This document shows positions 25,149-32,559 of a stretch of DNA of 35,117 nucleotides, one piece after another. Source of the stretch: Acidobacteriota bacterium (GTDB taxonomy: Bacteria; Acidobacteriota; Thermoanaerobaculia; Thermoanaerobaculales; Sulfomarinibacteraceae); assembly GCA_024641545.1 (NCBI GenBank), contig JAHECW010000039.1, positions 1 to 35,117 of the forward strand. The letters are read 5' to 3'. Within the stretch, counting starts at the first letter, position 1. The number at the start of each line of letters is the position of its first letter. The notes below the pieces were generated by a model. The model saw only the letters and a list, made by a program, of their open reading frames with translations, made no database searches and was not told the DNA's origin. A program made the translations under genes and the position numbers.

Positions 25149-26438
25149 TCAGTTCGAACGACCCCGCAGGCACTGCTGCCGCCGTCCGAGCCACAACCCG
25201 ACGCCCAACCAGGCTCCGGCGAGGGGAATCGCTGCGAAAGCGATCCCGGTCATCCCGAGACCGAGCCAACCCATGGCGGCGTAGGACCAGGCGCCGACCT
25301 GGTCGCCGGCGCGGTAGACGAAGGTGTCGACGAAGTTCTTGGCCTTGTACTTGGTCTCGCGCGGCAGCACGGTGTAGAGCATCTCGCGGCAGGGGCGGGC
25401 GATGGCGTAGTTCGAGGCGCGGCGGATGATCTGGAAGGCCGCGATGACACCCAGGGTCGGCGCCAACCCGAGCCCGAAGAAGCCGACGACCGAGATCAGC
25501 GGCAGCCAGGCCAGGGACATGGCGATACCGATGAAGCGGACGATCCGGCCGGTGAGGAAGATCTGGGTGACGATGGTGAGGATGTTGACCGCGAGATCGA
25601 GCCTGGCGAAGAACACGGTTCGGGCCGCGCTGTCGGCAAAGACCTCGGCGACGATCTCGGCCTGCTCGAAGTAGAGGAAGGTCGACGTCACCGTGTAGAG
25701 CGACATGTAGGCGACGATCCCGAGCAGGTAGGGCGAGCGGAACACCGCGGCGATGCCGGCCATGACGCCGCCGCCGATGACTTCGTTGCCGGCGGAATTG
25801 TTGTCGCCGGCCGCCGCCGGTGAGAGATCGGAGCTGCCGCCGCGGAGCAGGCTCAGCGCGACGATCACCGCGACTTCGATCATCGCGATGGAGGCCAGGA
25901 GGAGAAAACGCGGCGCGATGTGGGTTGCCAGGCTGGCGGTGACGGCCGATCCGACGATGGCGCCGGCGCTGCCGCCGACGGCGATGAAGCCGAAGATGCG
26001 CGCCCCCTGGCCGGGCTTGAAGAGGTCCGCCATTACCGACCAGAAGATCGAGACGACAAAGAGGTTGAAGACCGAGGTCCAGATGTAGAAGACCCGCCCC
26101 ACCCAGACGGTCTGGGTTTCGTTGACGGTGCTGAGCAGGACGAGGAAAACCAGCATGCAGGCGGCGAAGAGGGTGTAGCTCAGCGGGATGAAACGGCGGC
26201 GCGGGAGGCGGGAGACCATGGCGGTGTAGATCGGGTGGGCGAGCAGCATTCCGACGAGGGTGCCGGTGAAGAGCCACGGCAGGTTGCGGATTCCGCCGGC
26301 GATCCCCATCTCGTCGCGCAGCGGCCGGATGATGAAGTAGCTCGCCATGACGAGAAAGAAGTAGAGCGCGGACAGGAGCATCGGACGGACCTCGTCGGCC
26401 TCGACCGCGACAATTCGTTGGAGCACTTTGTTCAGCAT
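25149..26438 (-). CDS. MFS / NTP-NDP-exchange (Tlc-like) family transporter
   Basis: Many predicted TM helices; MASYFIIRPLRDEMGIAGGIRNLPWLFTGTLVGMLLAHPIYTAMVSRLPRRRFIPLSY, VSIFWSVMADLFKPGQGARIFGFIAVGGSAGAIVGSAVT. Confidence 0.7.
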   Translation of the reverse strand: MLNKVLQRIVAVEADEVRPMLLSALYFFLVMASYFIIRPLRDEMGIAGGIRNLPWLFTGTLVGMLLAHPIYTAMVSRLPRRRFIPLSYTLFAACMLVFLVLLSTVNETQTVWVGRVFYIWTSVFNLFVVSIFWSVMADLFKPGQGARIFGFIAVGGSAGAIVGSAVTASLATHIAPRFLLLASIAMIEVAVIVALSLLRGGSSDLSPAAAGDNNSAGNEVIGGGVMAGIAAVFRSPYLLGIVAYMSLYTVTSTFLYFEQAEIVAEVFADSAARTVFFARLDLAVNILTIVTQIFLTGRIVRFIGIAMSLAWLPLISVVGFFGLGLAPTLGVIAAFQIIRRASNYAIARPCREMLYTVLPRETKYKAKNFVDTFVYRAGDQVGAWSYAAMGWLGLGMTGIAFAAIPLAGAWLGVGLWLGRRQQCLRGRSN

Positions 26439-26574
26439 TCTCGTACGTCAACCTGTGTTGGGGCGCGTCGATTCCGGGGTGCTCCGGGGCTCCAGGCTGA
26501 AGCCAGACACTCATTCCGCCCAACCCGGGCGGCCTGAGGTGCCGATGAGTACGAGATGAGAACGCTCGGCGGCG

Positions 26575-26622
26575 GTGCCTGGCTCCAATTTTGTTCGCCG
26601 CGAACAAAGTTGCGTGCCTGGC
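26575..26622. repeat. REP-like element: direct repeats GTGCCTGGC flanking a perfect inverted repeat
   Basis: GTGCCTGGC at 26575-26583 and 26614-26622; TTTGTTCGC (26590-26598) C GCGAACAAA (26600-26608). Confidence 0.75.
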
Positions 26623-26691
26623 ATCCGCACGGGAAACAAGATGAGAGCATCATGTACGGGAACGCGTTCCGGGAAGCGCGACACCAAACCT

Positions 26692-26821
26692 GATTCTCCC
26701 ATCGTTGGTGGCCGAGGGAGCCACCTTTAGCATTGTTCGGCATCGAGGTTGGGCCGACGAAGAGACGATACGAATCCGAACAATGCAAAAGATGGCACCC
26801 CGTTCGATGCCGGAAACGCGT
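26692..26821. repeat. Dispersed hairpin element, copy A
   Basis: ctcccatcgttGGTGGCCGAgGGAGCCACCTTTAGCATTGTTCGG...CCGAACAATGCAAAAGATGGCACCCCGTTCGAtGCCGGAA; near-identical arms at 31446-31565. Confidence 0.9.
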
Positions 26822-26826
26822 TCCGT

Positions 26827-27996
26827 CTACGATCCGCTTTCTTCGGCGGCCTCACCCCGAGCATGCCAGGCGGCGAGGACCTGCTTCTCTTTCTCGGCGG
26901 ACAGTCCCGCCTTCGGCTTGGCGCGGCGCTCTTCCGGCAGCGAGTTCCAGTAGTCCATGGTGGTCTTGGCGGTGTCGGCGAGGGGCCGGAAGGTCAGACC
27001 GGCGTCCAGTGCGCGCCGGATGCTCGACGCCGAGAAACCGGCGTACTCGCCGACCGGGGGAACCCACACCGTCATCTCCATCCAGGGTTGGACCTCGTGC
27101 TTTTCGAGGAAATCGGCCTCCACCCAGGTGAAGGAGATCTCGTTGTCGACGGCGGCCCGGATGCCGTGGAGCATCCCGGCGATGCTCATGGGCGAGCGTG
27201 GGCCGGTTCCGTTGTAGGTGCCGACGGCCTTGTTCTCGACCAGCCGGATGTACCACTCGCCGAGGTCGCGGCAGTCGATGAACTGGACCGGGTCGTCGGG
27301 GTTGCCCGGGGCCATGACCTCGCCGCCGCGGAAGATCCGGATCGGCCAGTAGGAGAATCGATCCGAGTAGTCGCCGGGGCCGACGATGAGCCCGGGTCGG
27401 ACGACGACGGCCCTGTCGGGGAAGGCCTTGCGGGTCTCCTCCTCACAGCGCGCCTTGAGCGGGCCGTAGTTTTCCCCGGTGATGTCCTTGGTGGTCAGAA
27501 CCCCGGCCTCGTCCTCGGCGGAGATCCGCCCGACCGCGGCGGTCTCGTCGGCGCCCGGAATCGACGAGTCGGCATAGGCCGAGATCGACGAGGTGTAGAG
27601 ATAGAGATCGGCGGCGCCGGCGAGCAGGCCGGCCGACTCGCTGACCCACCGGGGGATGGATGCGGTGTTGTCGATGACGACGTCCCAACGCCGGCCGTCG
27701 GCGACGGCCTTTTCGAGGGCCGAGATGTCGTCGTTGCGGTCGCCGGTGATGCGCTCGACCTCGGGGAAGAGATGGGAGTTGGTCTTGCCGCGGTTGAAGA
27801 GGGTCAGCTTGTGGCCGCGGGCAAGGGCGTACTCCACCATGGGTGGCCCGATCAATCCAGTTCCGCCGAGGACGAGGATCTCGAGCGGCTTTGCGGCTGC
27901 TTCCGCAGCTGCTTTTGTGGTGTGGGCGGCGGCGAGACCGGCGGCGCCGGCGGCGAGGACGGACAGCTGGACGAACTCACGTCGGTTGGTGGGCAT
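26827..27996 (-). CDS. NAD-dependent epimerase/dehydratase-type SDR with Tat signal
   Basis: Tat motif NRREFVQLSVLAAGAAGLAAA; Rossmann ILVLGGTGLIGPPMVEYALARGHKLTLFNRG. Confidence 0.85.
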   Translation of the reverse strand: MPTNRREFVQLSVLAAGAAGLAAAHTTKAAAEAAAKPLEILVLGGTGLIGPPMVEYALARGHKLTLFNRGKTNSHLFPEVERITGDRNDDISALEKAVADGRRWDVVIDNTASIPRWVSESAGLLAGAADLYLYTSSISAYADSSIPGADETAAVGRISAEDEAGVLTTKDITGENYGPLKARCEEETRKAFPDRAVVVRPGLIVGPGDYSDRFSYWPIRIFRGGEVMAPGNPDDPVQFIDCRDLGEWYIRLVENKAVGTYNGTGPRSPMSIAGMLHGIRAAVDNEISFTWVEADFLEKHEVQPWMEMTVWVPPVGEYAGFSASSIRRALDAGLTFRPLADTAKTTMDYWNSLPEERRAKPKAGLSAEKEKQVLAAWHARGEAAEESGS

Positions 27997-28107: not shown

Positions 28108-28241
28108 GGGAGTGAGGAGAGAGAAGGTTAGAAAGTGAGGAAGTGAAGAAGTATCTGGTGAGACAGGGTTGTGATCCATCTCACGTCTCACCTTGAAATC
28201 CTCACCTTCTCACCTTCTAACCTCCTGACTTCCTCACTCCC
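28108..28241. repeat. Long imperfect inverted repeat of GTGAGAAGG/GTTAGAAGG units
   Basis: Left gggagtgaggagagagaaggttagaaagtgaggaagtgaagaag...; right ...cctcaccttctcaccttctaacctcctgacttcctcactccc; ends 17 nt before the SDR start codon. Confidence 0.85.
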
Positions 28242-29203: not shown

Positions 29204-31426
29204 ATGGTCAATGTGGAAAACGAACGGGAAAAGGCGCCCTCGCAACGGCATTTGAGTGCCCTTGCGAGACCTGCGGACGGGGCTCGGCCGGAACGGGCCG
29301 ATGCGGCTCCCGACGGGGTGGAGGATCGTCTGGTGGTCCTCACGGTGCTGCCGAGCGCAGCCGAAACCGATCTGATTCGTTCCCAGCTCTCCGAGGCGTT
29401 TGACGCCGTCGTCATCACGTCCACGCTGACCCTCTCCGGTGCCGTGGATCGGGTCGCGGCCGGTGGGATCGACATCGTTTTGCTCGGTCTCGACCTTCCC
29501 GACAGCTCGGGGCTGTCCACCTTTCAACGAATGTTCGACTGCGCCCCCGATCTCCCGATCGTCGTCATGGTCGATCGGGAAGGCGAAGACCTCGCGCTGA
29601 GGGCCATTTCCCAGGGTTGCCAGGGTTTTCTGACCCGTTTCGAGATCGGCCCGAAACAATTGCGGCGCAGCATCGTGGCCTCGGTGGAACGGCAGCGGGC
29701 GCTTCGCACGATCCGCCGCGACGCCGAGCGGTACTCGTTGGCCATCAACGGGACGAGCGACGGGCTGTGGGACTGGGACCTGGAAAGCGATGCCGTGTTC
29801 TATTCGGCGCGGTGGAACGGCCTCATGGGCCTTCCCGAGCGCGATGTGGTCGCCGGTCCGTACCACTGGTTCGACCGGGTCCACCCCGACGACCTTTCCG
29901 GGTTGAAGGACATGCTCATCGAGCACCTGAGCGGCAACGCCCGCCATTTCGAGCACGAGTACCGGGTCCGCGGCACCGGAGGCGACTATCTCTGGGTGCT
30001 GTCGAGGGGCCTCGTGGTGCGGAATCTCGGCGGCGAGACCCGTCGGATCGCCGGGTCGATGACCGACATCACCGAGCGCAAGCTCGCGGAGAAGCTCCTG
30101 GCATTCGGCGCCCTCCACGACGAGCTCACCGGGCTCGCCAATCGAACGCTCTTCAAAGACCGGTTGGCGGTGGCCCTCAAAACGATGAAACGCCAGTCGG
30201 GACCTCCCTTCGGTGTTCTCTTCCTCGACCTGGATCGTTTCAAGAGGGTCAACGACACCTTCGGACACTCGGTGGGCGATCGTCTCCTGGTGGAGATCTC
30301 CCGGCGCCTCGAGACCTTTCTGCGGCCCGGCGACACCCTCGCCCGGCTCGGTGGCGACGAGTTCGGGATCCTGGTGGCCGATGCGCCCAGCGTTTCCGAC
30401 GCGCTGCATGTGGCCGAACGGGTCCAGGAGCGGCTCAGGCTCCCCTTCGCCGTCGACGATCGCACCCTCGAGGTCTCGGCGAGCATCGGAATCGCCCTGA
30501 GCGCCACCGGGTACGACGAACCCGAGGAGATCCTCCACGACGCGGATGTCGCCATGTACCGCGCCAAGGCCGCAGGGCGGGGCCAGACCCAGGTTTTCGA
30601 CCCGTTGATGCATCGCTCCGCGGTCGCGCTCATGCGCTTGGAAGGCGAGCTCCGCCACGCGGTCGATCACGACGAGTTCGTGATGTACTACCAGCCCGTC
30701 GTGTCATTCGATCGCGGCCGGGTGGTCGGTTTCGAGGCGCTGGTTCGGTGGAACCACCCGGAACGGGGCCTGCTCCAACCGGGCCAGTTCTTTGCCATCG
30801 CCGAGGAGTCGGGGCTGGCGAACGCCATCGGTTGGTGGGCGATGGAGGACGCGTGCCGCCAGCTCGTCGAGTGGCACCGGCGGTTTCCGGAGAATCCGAC
30901 GCTGTGGGTCTCGGTCAACATCTCGGATCGGCTCTTCATGCAGGCCGACATGGTGAGCCGCGCCAGGGCCATTCTCGCCGACACCGGTCTCGACCCCGCG
31001 ACCCTGCGCCTCGAGTTCCGCGAAGAGGTGGTGGTCCGTCACGCGGAGCAGGCGATCGCCAAACTCGAAGAGCTCCGCCGGCTCGGGATCCGATTGGCGG
31101 TCGACGACTTCGGAAGCGGTCTCTCGCACCTGAGCTTTCTCCAGAGCTTCCGCTACGACACTCTCAAGATCGACCCCTCCTACATCAACGCCCTCGGAGG
31201 CGACGCGCCCACCATGATCGAGACCATTCTCTCGATGGCCGACGGATTCGGCATCGGGGTCATCGCCGAGGGGGTGGAGACCGCGGATCAGGCCGACCGC
31301 CTGCGCCGGCTTCGCTGCCCCGAGGGCCAGGGGTTCTGGTTCGCGCGCCCGGTGATGCCGACCGACGCCGAGCACCTCATCGTCAATACCCCGGAGTGGT
31401 GGGCGATGGGCGGGCAGGCGCACTAG
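29204..31426 (+). CDS. Receiver-like / PAS / GGDEF / EAL protein (putative bifunctional c-di-GMP enzyme)
   Basis: N-terminal receiver-like fold; PAS GTSDGLWDWDLESDAVFYSARW and PAC SMTDITERKLAEK; RPGDTLARLGGDEFGIL (I-site RxxD plus GGDEF); FEALVRW, VSVNIS, VDDFGSGLSHL, LKIDPSYI, VIAEGVET. Confidence 0.93.
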   Translation: MVNVENEREKAPSQRHLSALARPADGARPERADAAPDGVEDRLVVLTVLPSAAETDLIRSQLSEAFDAVVITSTLTLSGAVDRVAAGGIDIVLLGLDLPDSSGLSTFQRMFDCAPDLPIVVMVDREGEDLALRAISQGCQGFLTRFEIGPKQLRRSIVASVERQRALRTIRRDAERYSLAINGTSDGLWDWDLESDAVFYSARWNGLMGLPERDVVAGPYHWFDRVHPDDLSGLKDMLIEHLSGNARHFEHEYRVRGTGGDYLWVLSRGLVVRNLGGETRRIAGSMTDITERKLAEKLLAFGALHDELTGLANRTLFKDRLAVALKTMKRQSGPPFGVLFLDLDRFKRVNDTFGHSVGDRLLVEISRRLETFLRPGDTLARLGGDEFGILVADAPSVSDALHVAERVQERLRLPFAVDDRTLEVSASIGIALSATGYDEPEEILHDADVAMYRAKAAGRGQTQVFDPLMHRSAVALMRLEGELRHAVDHDEFVMYYQPVVSFDRGRVVGFEALVRWNHPERGLLQPGQFFAIAEESGLANAIGWWAMEDACRQLVEWHRRFPENPTLWVSVNISDRLFMQADMVSRARAILADTGLDPATLRLEFREEVVVRHAEQAIAKLEELRRLGIRLAVDDFGSGLSHLSFLQSFRYDTLKIDPSYINALGGDAPTMIETILSMADGFGIGVIAEGVETADQADRLRRLRCPEGQGFWFARPVMPTDAEHLIVNTPEWWAMGGQAH

Positions 31427-31445: not shown

Positions 31446-31565
31446 CTCCCAACGAGGGTGGCCGATGGAGCCACCTTTAGCATTGTTCGGAATCATGGTT
31501 GGTTTGACCTTCGGCGGTTCAGCCCCGAACAATGCAAAAGATGGCACCCCGTTCGAGGCCGGAAC
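31446..31565. repeat. Dispersed hairpin element, copy B
   Basis: ctcccaacgagGGTGGCCGAtGGAGCCACCTTTAGCATTGTTCGG...CCGAACAATGCAAAAGATGGCACCCCGTTCGAgGCCGGAA. Confidence 0.9.
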
Positions 31566-31647: not shown

Positions 31648-32559
31648 ATGAGCGACGCACTTCCCTCCGTCACCATCTACACCGACGGCGGCTGCCGACC
31701 CAACCCGGGACCCGGCGGCTGGGGCGCGATCATTCTGCGGCCGGGCGGCGATCCCCTCGAAATGAACGGCGCCGATCCGAAGGCCACCAACAACCGGATG
31801 GAGCTCATGGCCGCCATCGAGGCGCTGCGGTCCCTCGCCGAGCCGCACCGGATCGAGCTCATGACCGACTCCGAGTACGTCCGCAAGGGCGTCACCGAGT
31901 GGATGACCAAGTGGCGCGCCACCGGGTGGAAGACCGCCGGCAAGAAGGATGTCGCCAACCGTGACCTCTGGGAAGCGCTCAACGAGGAGATCAAACGGCA
32001 CAAGATCATCTGGCGGTGGGTGCGCGGCCACACCGGCGACGCGTGGAACGAACGCGCCGATGAGCTGGCGTCGGCGGCCATTCCCCGCGCACCGCTGCCG
32101 GTGGACGATCCCGATGCGGTCCATCTCTTCACCGCCGTCGCCCATTCGGGAAAGCTCGACGCCGGCGCCTGGGCGGTGCTCTTCCGGTTCCGCGGTCAGG
32201 AGCGGGAGCTGAGCGGCCGCGCGGCGGGGGCTTCGGCCAACCGGATGCACATCACCGGAGCGGGCATGGGTCTCGCCGAGCTCAACCGGCGGGTCAAGGT
32301 CCACCTCTACACCGCCTCGGACTACCTCAAGGACGGCGCCACCGCCTGGATCAAGGGCTGGCAGGCAAGGGACTGGACCACCCGCGATGGCAAGGCGGTG
32401 GCGAACCGCGATCTCTGGCAGCGGCTGGCGACCCTTCTCGGCCGCCACGATGTCCGCTGGCACGTGGTCTCACGCGAGAGTCTCCCGGAGGAGATGGAGC
32501 GCGCCAAGGCGCTTGCCAAGGAAGCCCTTGCCGATCGGGGGCCGAACGACGGTGAGTAG
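31648..32559 (+). CDS. rnhA: Ribonuclease HI with a second, catalytically degenerate RNase H-like domain
   Basis: N-terminal VTIYTDGGCRPNPGPGGWG, NNRMELMAAIEAL, LMTDSEYVRKG, WVRGHTGDAWNERADELA; C-terminal half aligns with the first but lacks the acidic residues. Confidence 0.9.
   Translation: MSDALPSVTIYTDGGCRPNPGPGGWGAIILRPGGDPLEMNGADPKATNNRMELMAAIEALRSLAEPHRIELMTDSEYVRKGVTEWMTKWRATGWKTAGKKDVANRDLWEALNEEIKRHKIIWRWVRGHTGDAWNERADELASAAIPRAPLPVDDPDAVHLFTAVAHSGKLDAGAWAVLFRFRGQERELSGRAAGASANRMHITGAGMGLAELNRRVKVHLYTASDYLKDGATAWIKGWQARDWTTRDGKAVANRDLWQRLATLLGRHDVRWHVVSRESLPEEMERAKALAKEALADRGPNDGE

Follow-up and report, generated by a model that had tools for sequence, protein, structure and literature searches.

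The window analysed here, a stretch of 35,117 nucleotides from the Acidobacteriota contig JAHECW010000039.1, carries two similar hairpin-forming sequences, copies A and B, and raises the question of what they are and how they spread. Both are very probably REPIN-like elements, namely dimers built from TIRYT terminal repeats that are non-autonomous and were mobilised in trans by a transposase of the TIRYT class. The features on which this reading is built are the following.

26692..26821, plus strand: copy A, dimer element of family 1, intergenic
26717..26740, plus strand: left arm of copy A, GGAGCCACCTTTAGCATTGTTCGG
26741..26775, no strand: spacer (loop) of copy A, 35 nt
26776..26799, minus strand: right arm of copy A, reverse complement GGTGCCATCTTTTGCATTGTTCGG
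31446..31565, plus strand: copy B, dimer element of family 1, intergenic
31467..31490, plus strand: left arm of copy B
31491..31524, no strand: spacer of copy B, 34 nt
31525..31548, minus strand: right arm of copy B

Copy A is located upstream of an MFS-type gene (25149-26438, minus strand) and just downstream of an NAD-dependent epimerase-type gene (26827-27996, minus strand), about 6 bp from the stop of the latter, while copy B is flanked by a PAS-GGDEF-EAL gene (29204-31426) and an RNase HI gene (31648-32559). The first-pass annotation had described a hairpin with conserved arms and a variable loop, and this is borne out by near-identical arms, a diverged spacer and a fold far beyond that of shuffled sequences: folded as single-stranded DNA, copy A reaches -22.9 kcal/mol (z = -6.1) and copy B -20.2 kcal/mol (z = -4.5), and none of 200 shuffles was equally stable. 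Direct reading of the sequence gives arms of 24 nt that match at 21 of 24 positions, so that the earlier figure of about 20 was right in substance and slightly low; the centre has indeed diverged, but it measures 34–35 nt and not the approximately 40 nt first proposed. The mismatches of both copies fall at arm positions 3, 8, and 13, which are exactly five nucleotides apart, a possible mark of strand asymmetry; identical differences are seen in some copies of genomes G006 and G017. Homology among copies spans roughly -47 to +80/90 relative to the left core, in agreement with the extent originally noted. A and B both have a perfect version of the second, small hairpin described on the left edge (GGTGGC-N7-GCCACC); of the 17 aligned copies only about 4 have it, and it is therefore not a constant feature of the element.

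Read 5' to 3', the window holds two copies of family 1, and the description of a two-copy element is valid only at this scale, since a whole-genome search of the assembly (5.38 Mb in 310 contigs) found copies on many contigs. A covariance model built from 17 copies recovers about 19 distinct dispersed dimers in this genome; the 28 own-genome matches listed count the hairpin on both strands, and copy numbers are approximate for this reason and because no more than 28 candidates were scored in each genome. Copies A and B thus belong to a family of about 20 short non-coding repeats scattered between genes. All the 18 copies checked with a codon-usage gene caller (17 from this genome and L032 of the congener G001) are intergenic, and many of them lie within 6–60 bp of a gene 3' end; their orientation relative to the nearest gene is mixed and the flanking genes are unrelated. 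A coding element is ruled out, as no predicted gene covers any of these copies, in accordance with the first impression that no obvious protein is encoded. The elements occur in extragenic space as doublets rather than singlets, and the sole single arm, on contig C133, sits at a contig end. A simple segmental duplication, or inverted repeats arisen by chance, could be imagined from a window with two copies only; this is extremely improbable, considering the approximately 19 copies at unrelated loci, the related elements in 13 genomes and, as regards chance, the z-scores of the two folds. An attC-like integron site was also considered and set aside, since the copies occur singly at scattered places and do not form arrays.

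The covariance model matches 13 of 147 genomes of the class at E <= 0.01, all of them in the taxonomic family of the window, and no match was found outside this family among the 147 class genomes searched; the matches in G002 and G009 are weaker and represent candidate members of family 1. Copies of the own genome are mostly about 70–85% identical to one another, for which reason the activity of the family may be old; recent transposition was not observed.

The anatomy of family 1 is defined by two inverted copies of the arm consensus GG[A/T]GCCA[C/T]CTTT[A/T]GCATTGTTCGG, nearly invariant across 18 core-aligned copies, and by a spacer that is poorly conserved in sequence and is 33–36 nt long in all 18. 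A GTAG-type tag with a short REP hairpin is absent from the arms of the aligned copies, and for this reason the elements are called REPIN-like and not REPINs in the strict sense. Several copies carry a substitution in one arm that has a counterpart in the opposite arm. Among 44 copies from the own and related genomes of the taxonomic family, 13 of the 24 paired arm positions show changes on both sides, with 87 double-sided cells versus 28.0+-4.1 in shuffles (0/500), a test that kinship among sequences can inflate. The covariation score is 0.232 versus 0.094 after shuffling and no more than 0.105 with a slid partner, a control that keeps relatedness, although the structure was derived from one aligned sequence and the advantage over the slid versions is partly built in. 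Covariation of the arms, for which the first-pass annotation had suggested a covariance model, is also seen at genus level.

Strong arm covariation alone would also fit a structured or cis-regulatory RNA, in which the hairpin acts at the RNA level, for example on the processing or stability of 3' ends, its copies having arisen by duplication. The short distance of several copies from a gene 3' end (6–60 bp) and a weak terminator-like stem followed by CTTTT on the minus strand of the right arm point in the same direction, whereas Rfam gives no match over the elements at either gathering or relaxed thresholds, and mixed orientation and unrelated flanking genes are likewise not in its favor. This explanation is quite unlikely, and the structured-RNA alternative initially offered is not needed. 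An intrinsic terminator was rejected as the main function, since the stem with CTTTT occurs on one right-arm strand and is near shuffled expectation; a side role as terminator or mRNA-stabilising hairpin may exist.

The mobility of the dimers is suggested by the comparison of orthologous sites between congeners, in which five own-genome sites are without an intact copy in at least one congener and one site is shared. At the site of copy B, G001 has 75 bp between the flanking matches versus 148 bp here and no arms; no family-1 dimer is found between the orthologous flanks of L003 in G002 and of L007 and L013 in G001. The element of the L004 site is missing in G002, and G001 keeps there a remnant resembling the left edge; since this is not a clean empty site, deletion may account for some of the absences. 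In G001, L012 gives an ambiguous picture, possibly a decayed element, and the L011 site holds a family-1 variant with both arms changed. The shared site is represented by L008 and its orthologue L032 in G001, which share 88% identity across the element. Neither a clean pre-integration site nor a target duplication was readable at the compared sites. Family 1 therefore both persists vertically and varies in occupancy, through gain, loss or both; such differences between congeners argue further against a function of the hairpin as RNA. The flank of L011 contains a sequence of 35 bp, around TTTCGGGCACGGACTCGGACTCGGAC, for which G002 gives more than 25 matches.

The search for a Y1/RAYT enzyme suggested at first found in the own genome two PF01797 genes, one full length (L062) and one shortened (L061).

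L062, contig C149: full-length TIRYT/RAYT-type Y1 (HUH) transposase gene, 331 aa

L062 scores 80.8 bits with the NCBIfam model REP_Tyr_transpos, above its cut-off of 80, also matches Pfam Y1_Tnp and carries an NHYH motif; a profile made from its alignment hits the C-terminal region of DnaA (E 0.0012). It is the full-length transposase of the TIRYT class (RAYT subclass 2.1) in this genome, with a DnaA-like C-terminal helix-turn-helix, and the dimers of family 1 most likely derive from an enzyme of this class. The gene is flanked by the inverted ends GGTGCCACCCTTAGCATTCAT, written GGTGCCACCCTTAGCATT... in short, and, as in many relatives, these flanking inverted repeats start with GGTGCCA. Compared with the left arm, the ends of L062 and of L102 (genome G013) agree at 17 of 21 positions; when the shared head is held fixed and the rest shuffled, p is about 7e-4 for L062 and about 3e-4 for L102, in a set of 30 comparisons. 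Transposase ends of the GGTGCCAGG type show no match to the arm beyond the head. Arms of the dimers and TIRs of the genes thus share the same end family, having the GGTGCCAC head and a matching tail, and are not identical. In a tree of 38 proteins the initial letters of the ends are distributed in line with the phylogeny: proteins of the GGTGCCAC type form one clade with 100/100 support, and the six end-type groups need 5 changes versus 18.6 after shuffling. Among the PF01797 genes searched in 20 genomes of the taxonomic family, none has ends identical to the arms (best 17/21), and a second search for a cognate, by A1 alignment against 149 class genomes, gave again 17/21 as the best end match. 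The shortened gene L061 (G000, contig C297) is TIRYT-like, with an internal gap and near-perfect 26-nt inverted ends GGTGCCACGTTCAGAATGCACCATTG; L101 and L102 are TIRYT genes in which partial copies of the gene's own end repeat stand in tandem just past the stop codon.

The match between arms and gene ends is a further point against the RNA explanation, and it also bears on a classical MITE, that is a derivative of a double-strand DDE transposon with terminal inverted repeats. Imperfect arms of terminal type, absence of coding capacity and dispersed copies would be consistent with a MITE, but the centre has diverged among copies, unlike in a MITE burst, the ends found to match belong to Y1/HUH genes only (those of Y1/HUH genes being the ends compared), and target duplication is not seen at the compared sites; a MITE is accordingly very unlikely. 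Taken as a mobile repeat in the broad REPIN/MITE-like sense, the earlier proposal is supported by many dispersed copies, intergenic placement, and a RAYT-like Y1 transposase with matching ends; of the two outcomes named at first as contrary to it, a total of two copies or a location within conserved coding sequence, neither was observed.

For TIRYT-associated dimers a mechanism can be proposed by analogy. In a single-stranded region the arms would fold into a long imperfect hairpin, as in IS200/IS605 and RAYT elements; the transposase, presumably L062 or a relative, would recognise the folded arms, bind and cut at them, for which TnpAREP/REP is the model (PMC8266576) together with REPINs, and the excised strand would then be joined into another intergenic site. 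The arms would be kept because they are recognised and must pair, and the spacer would retain its length and not its sequence. To our knowledge, TIRYTs are among the least studied relatives of RAYTs, and we know of no experimentally established target. Matched ends and a fixed spacer offer a concrete substrate for asking whether TIRYTs use single-stranded hairpins like TnpAREP does.

REPINs are one close point of reference, being inverted doublets with conserved arms that keep the length of the spacer and show compensatory changes (PMC3116915), as observed here, and family 1 also shares with them intergenic dispersal and the presence of a RAYT-type gene in the genome. In contrast to REPINs, the arms are without a GTAG-tagged short REP hairpin, the copies number about 19, and no identical dimer adjacent to the transposase was found. 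The arms resemble TIRYT-class terminal inverted repeats rather than GTAG-type REPs. TIRYTs and their TIR families, including TIR dimers and clusters elsewhere in the genome and TIRtrons, were described in 2013, with an acidobacterial example in Koribacter versatilis, where the TIRs of ORF1552 form a repeat family (PMC3733652). The system of the window is similar in having a Y1 tyrosine transposase with long flanking inverted repeats instead of GTAG REPs, as well as dimers; it differs in the ends, which start with GGTGCCA and do not have the GGGGWSAS motif, and in that its dimers, whose arms covary and whose spacer has a fixed length, are followed here through the genomes of a taxonomic family. 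The C-terminal DnaA-like HTH, the HUH motif NHYH and the TIR association are those of RAYT/TnpAREP subclass 2.1, corresponding to group 1 of Bertels; no REP-like sequences were reported near subclass 2.1 genes (PMC6006769), while dimers with related ends occur here in the same genomes. TIRYT TIR dimers being already known, family 1 of the Thermoanaerobaculia is a new acidobacteriotal addition to an ordinary kind of bacterial repeat. It is a well-supported family, whose arms covary in about a dozen related genomes, in a bacterial group where such repeats were little described.

A second REPIN-like family is found close to copy A.

26574..26626, plus strand: palindrome of family 2, GGTGCCTGGCTCC...GTTCGCCGCGAACA...GTGCCTGGCATCC

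The family 2 palindrome (GGTGCCTGGC...) occurs at about 20 places in the own genome and many times in G001 and G002. Seven of the 20 places have a family 1 copy no more than about 100 bp away, on either side (26574-26626 of the window and contigs C43, C208, C288, C36, C51, and C269). A hand calculation that uses the genome size and the copy numbers gives an expectation of about 0.03 such places, rising to about 0.3 when only a tenth of the genome is taken as available. Family 2 is to the left of family 1 at some sites and to the right at others with the same relative orientation, and at the orthologous site L008/L032 it stands on opposite sides of family 1 in the two species. The association could reflect tandem clustering, a shared insertion preference or a composite unit. 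In the last case, families 1 and 2 would form one mobile unit, able to circularise and to be reinserted with its parts permuted; this is unlikely, but if true it would be evidence for a circular single-stranded intermediate with ends of two transposase classes. Other repeats of the window are a long palindrome of purine-rich GAGAAGGTTAGAAAGTGAGGAAGTGA units at 28108-28241 and 2156-2197, with similar repeats in the genome and in congeners, and three tandem 30-bp units with a GCGCTCGCTTCGCTCGC hairpin at 640-732.
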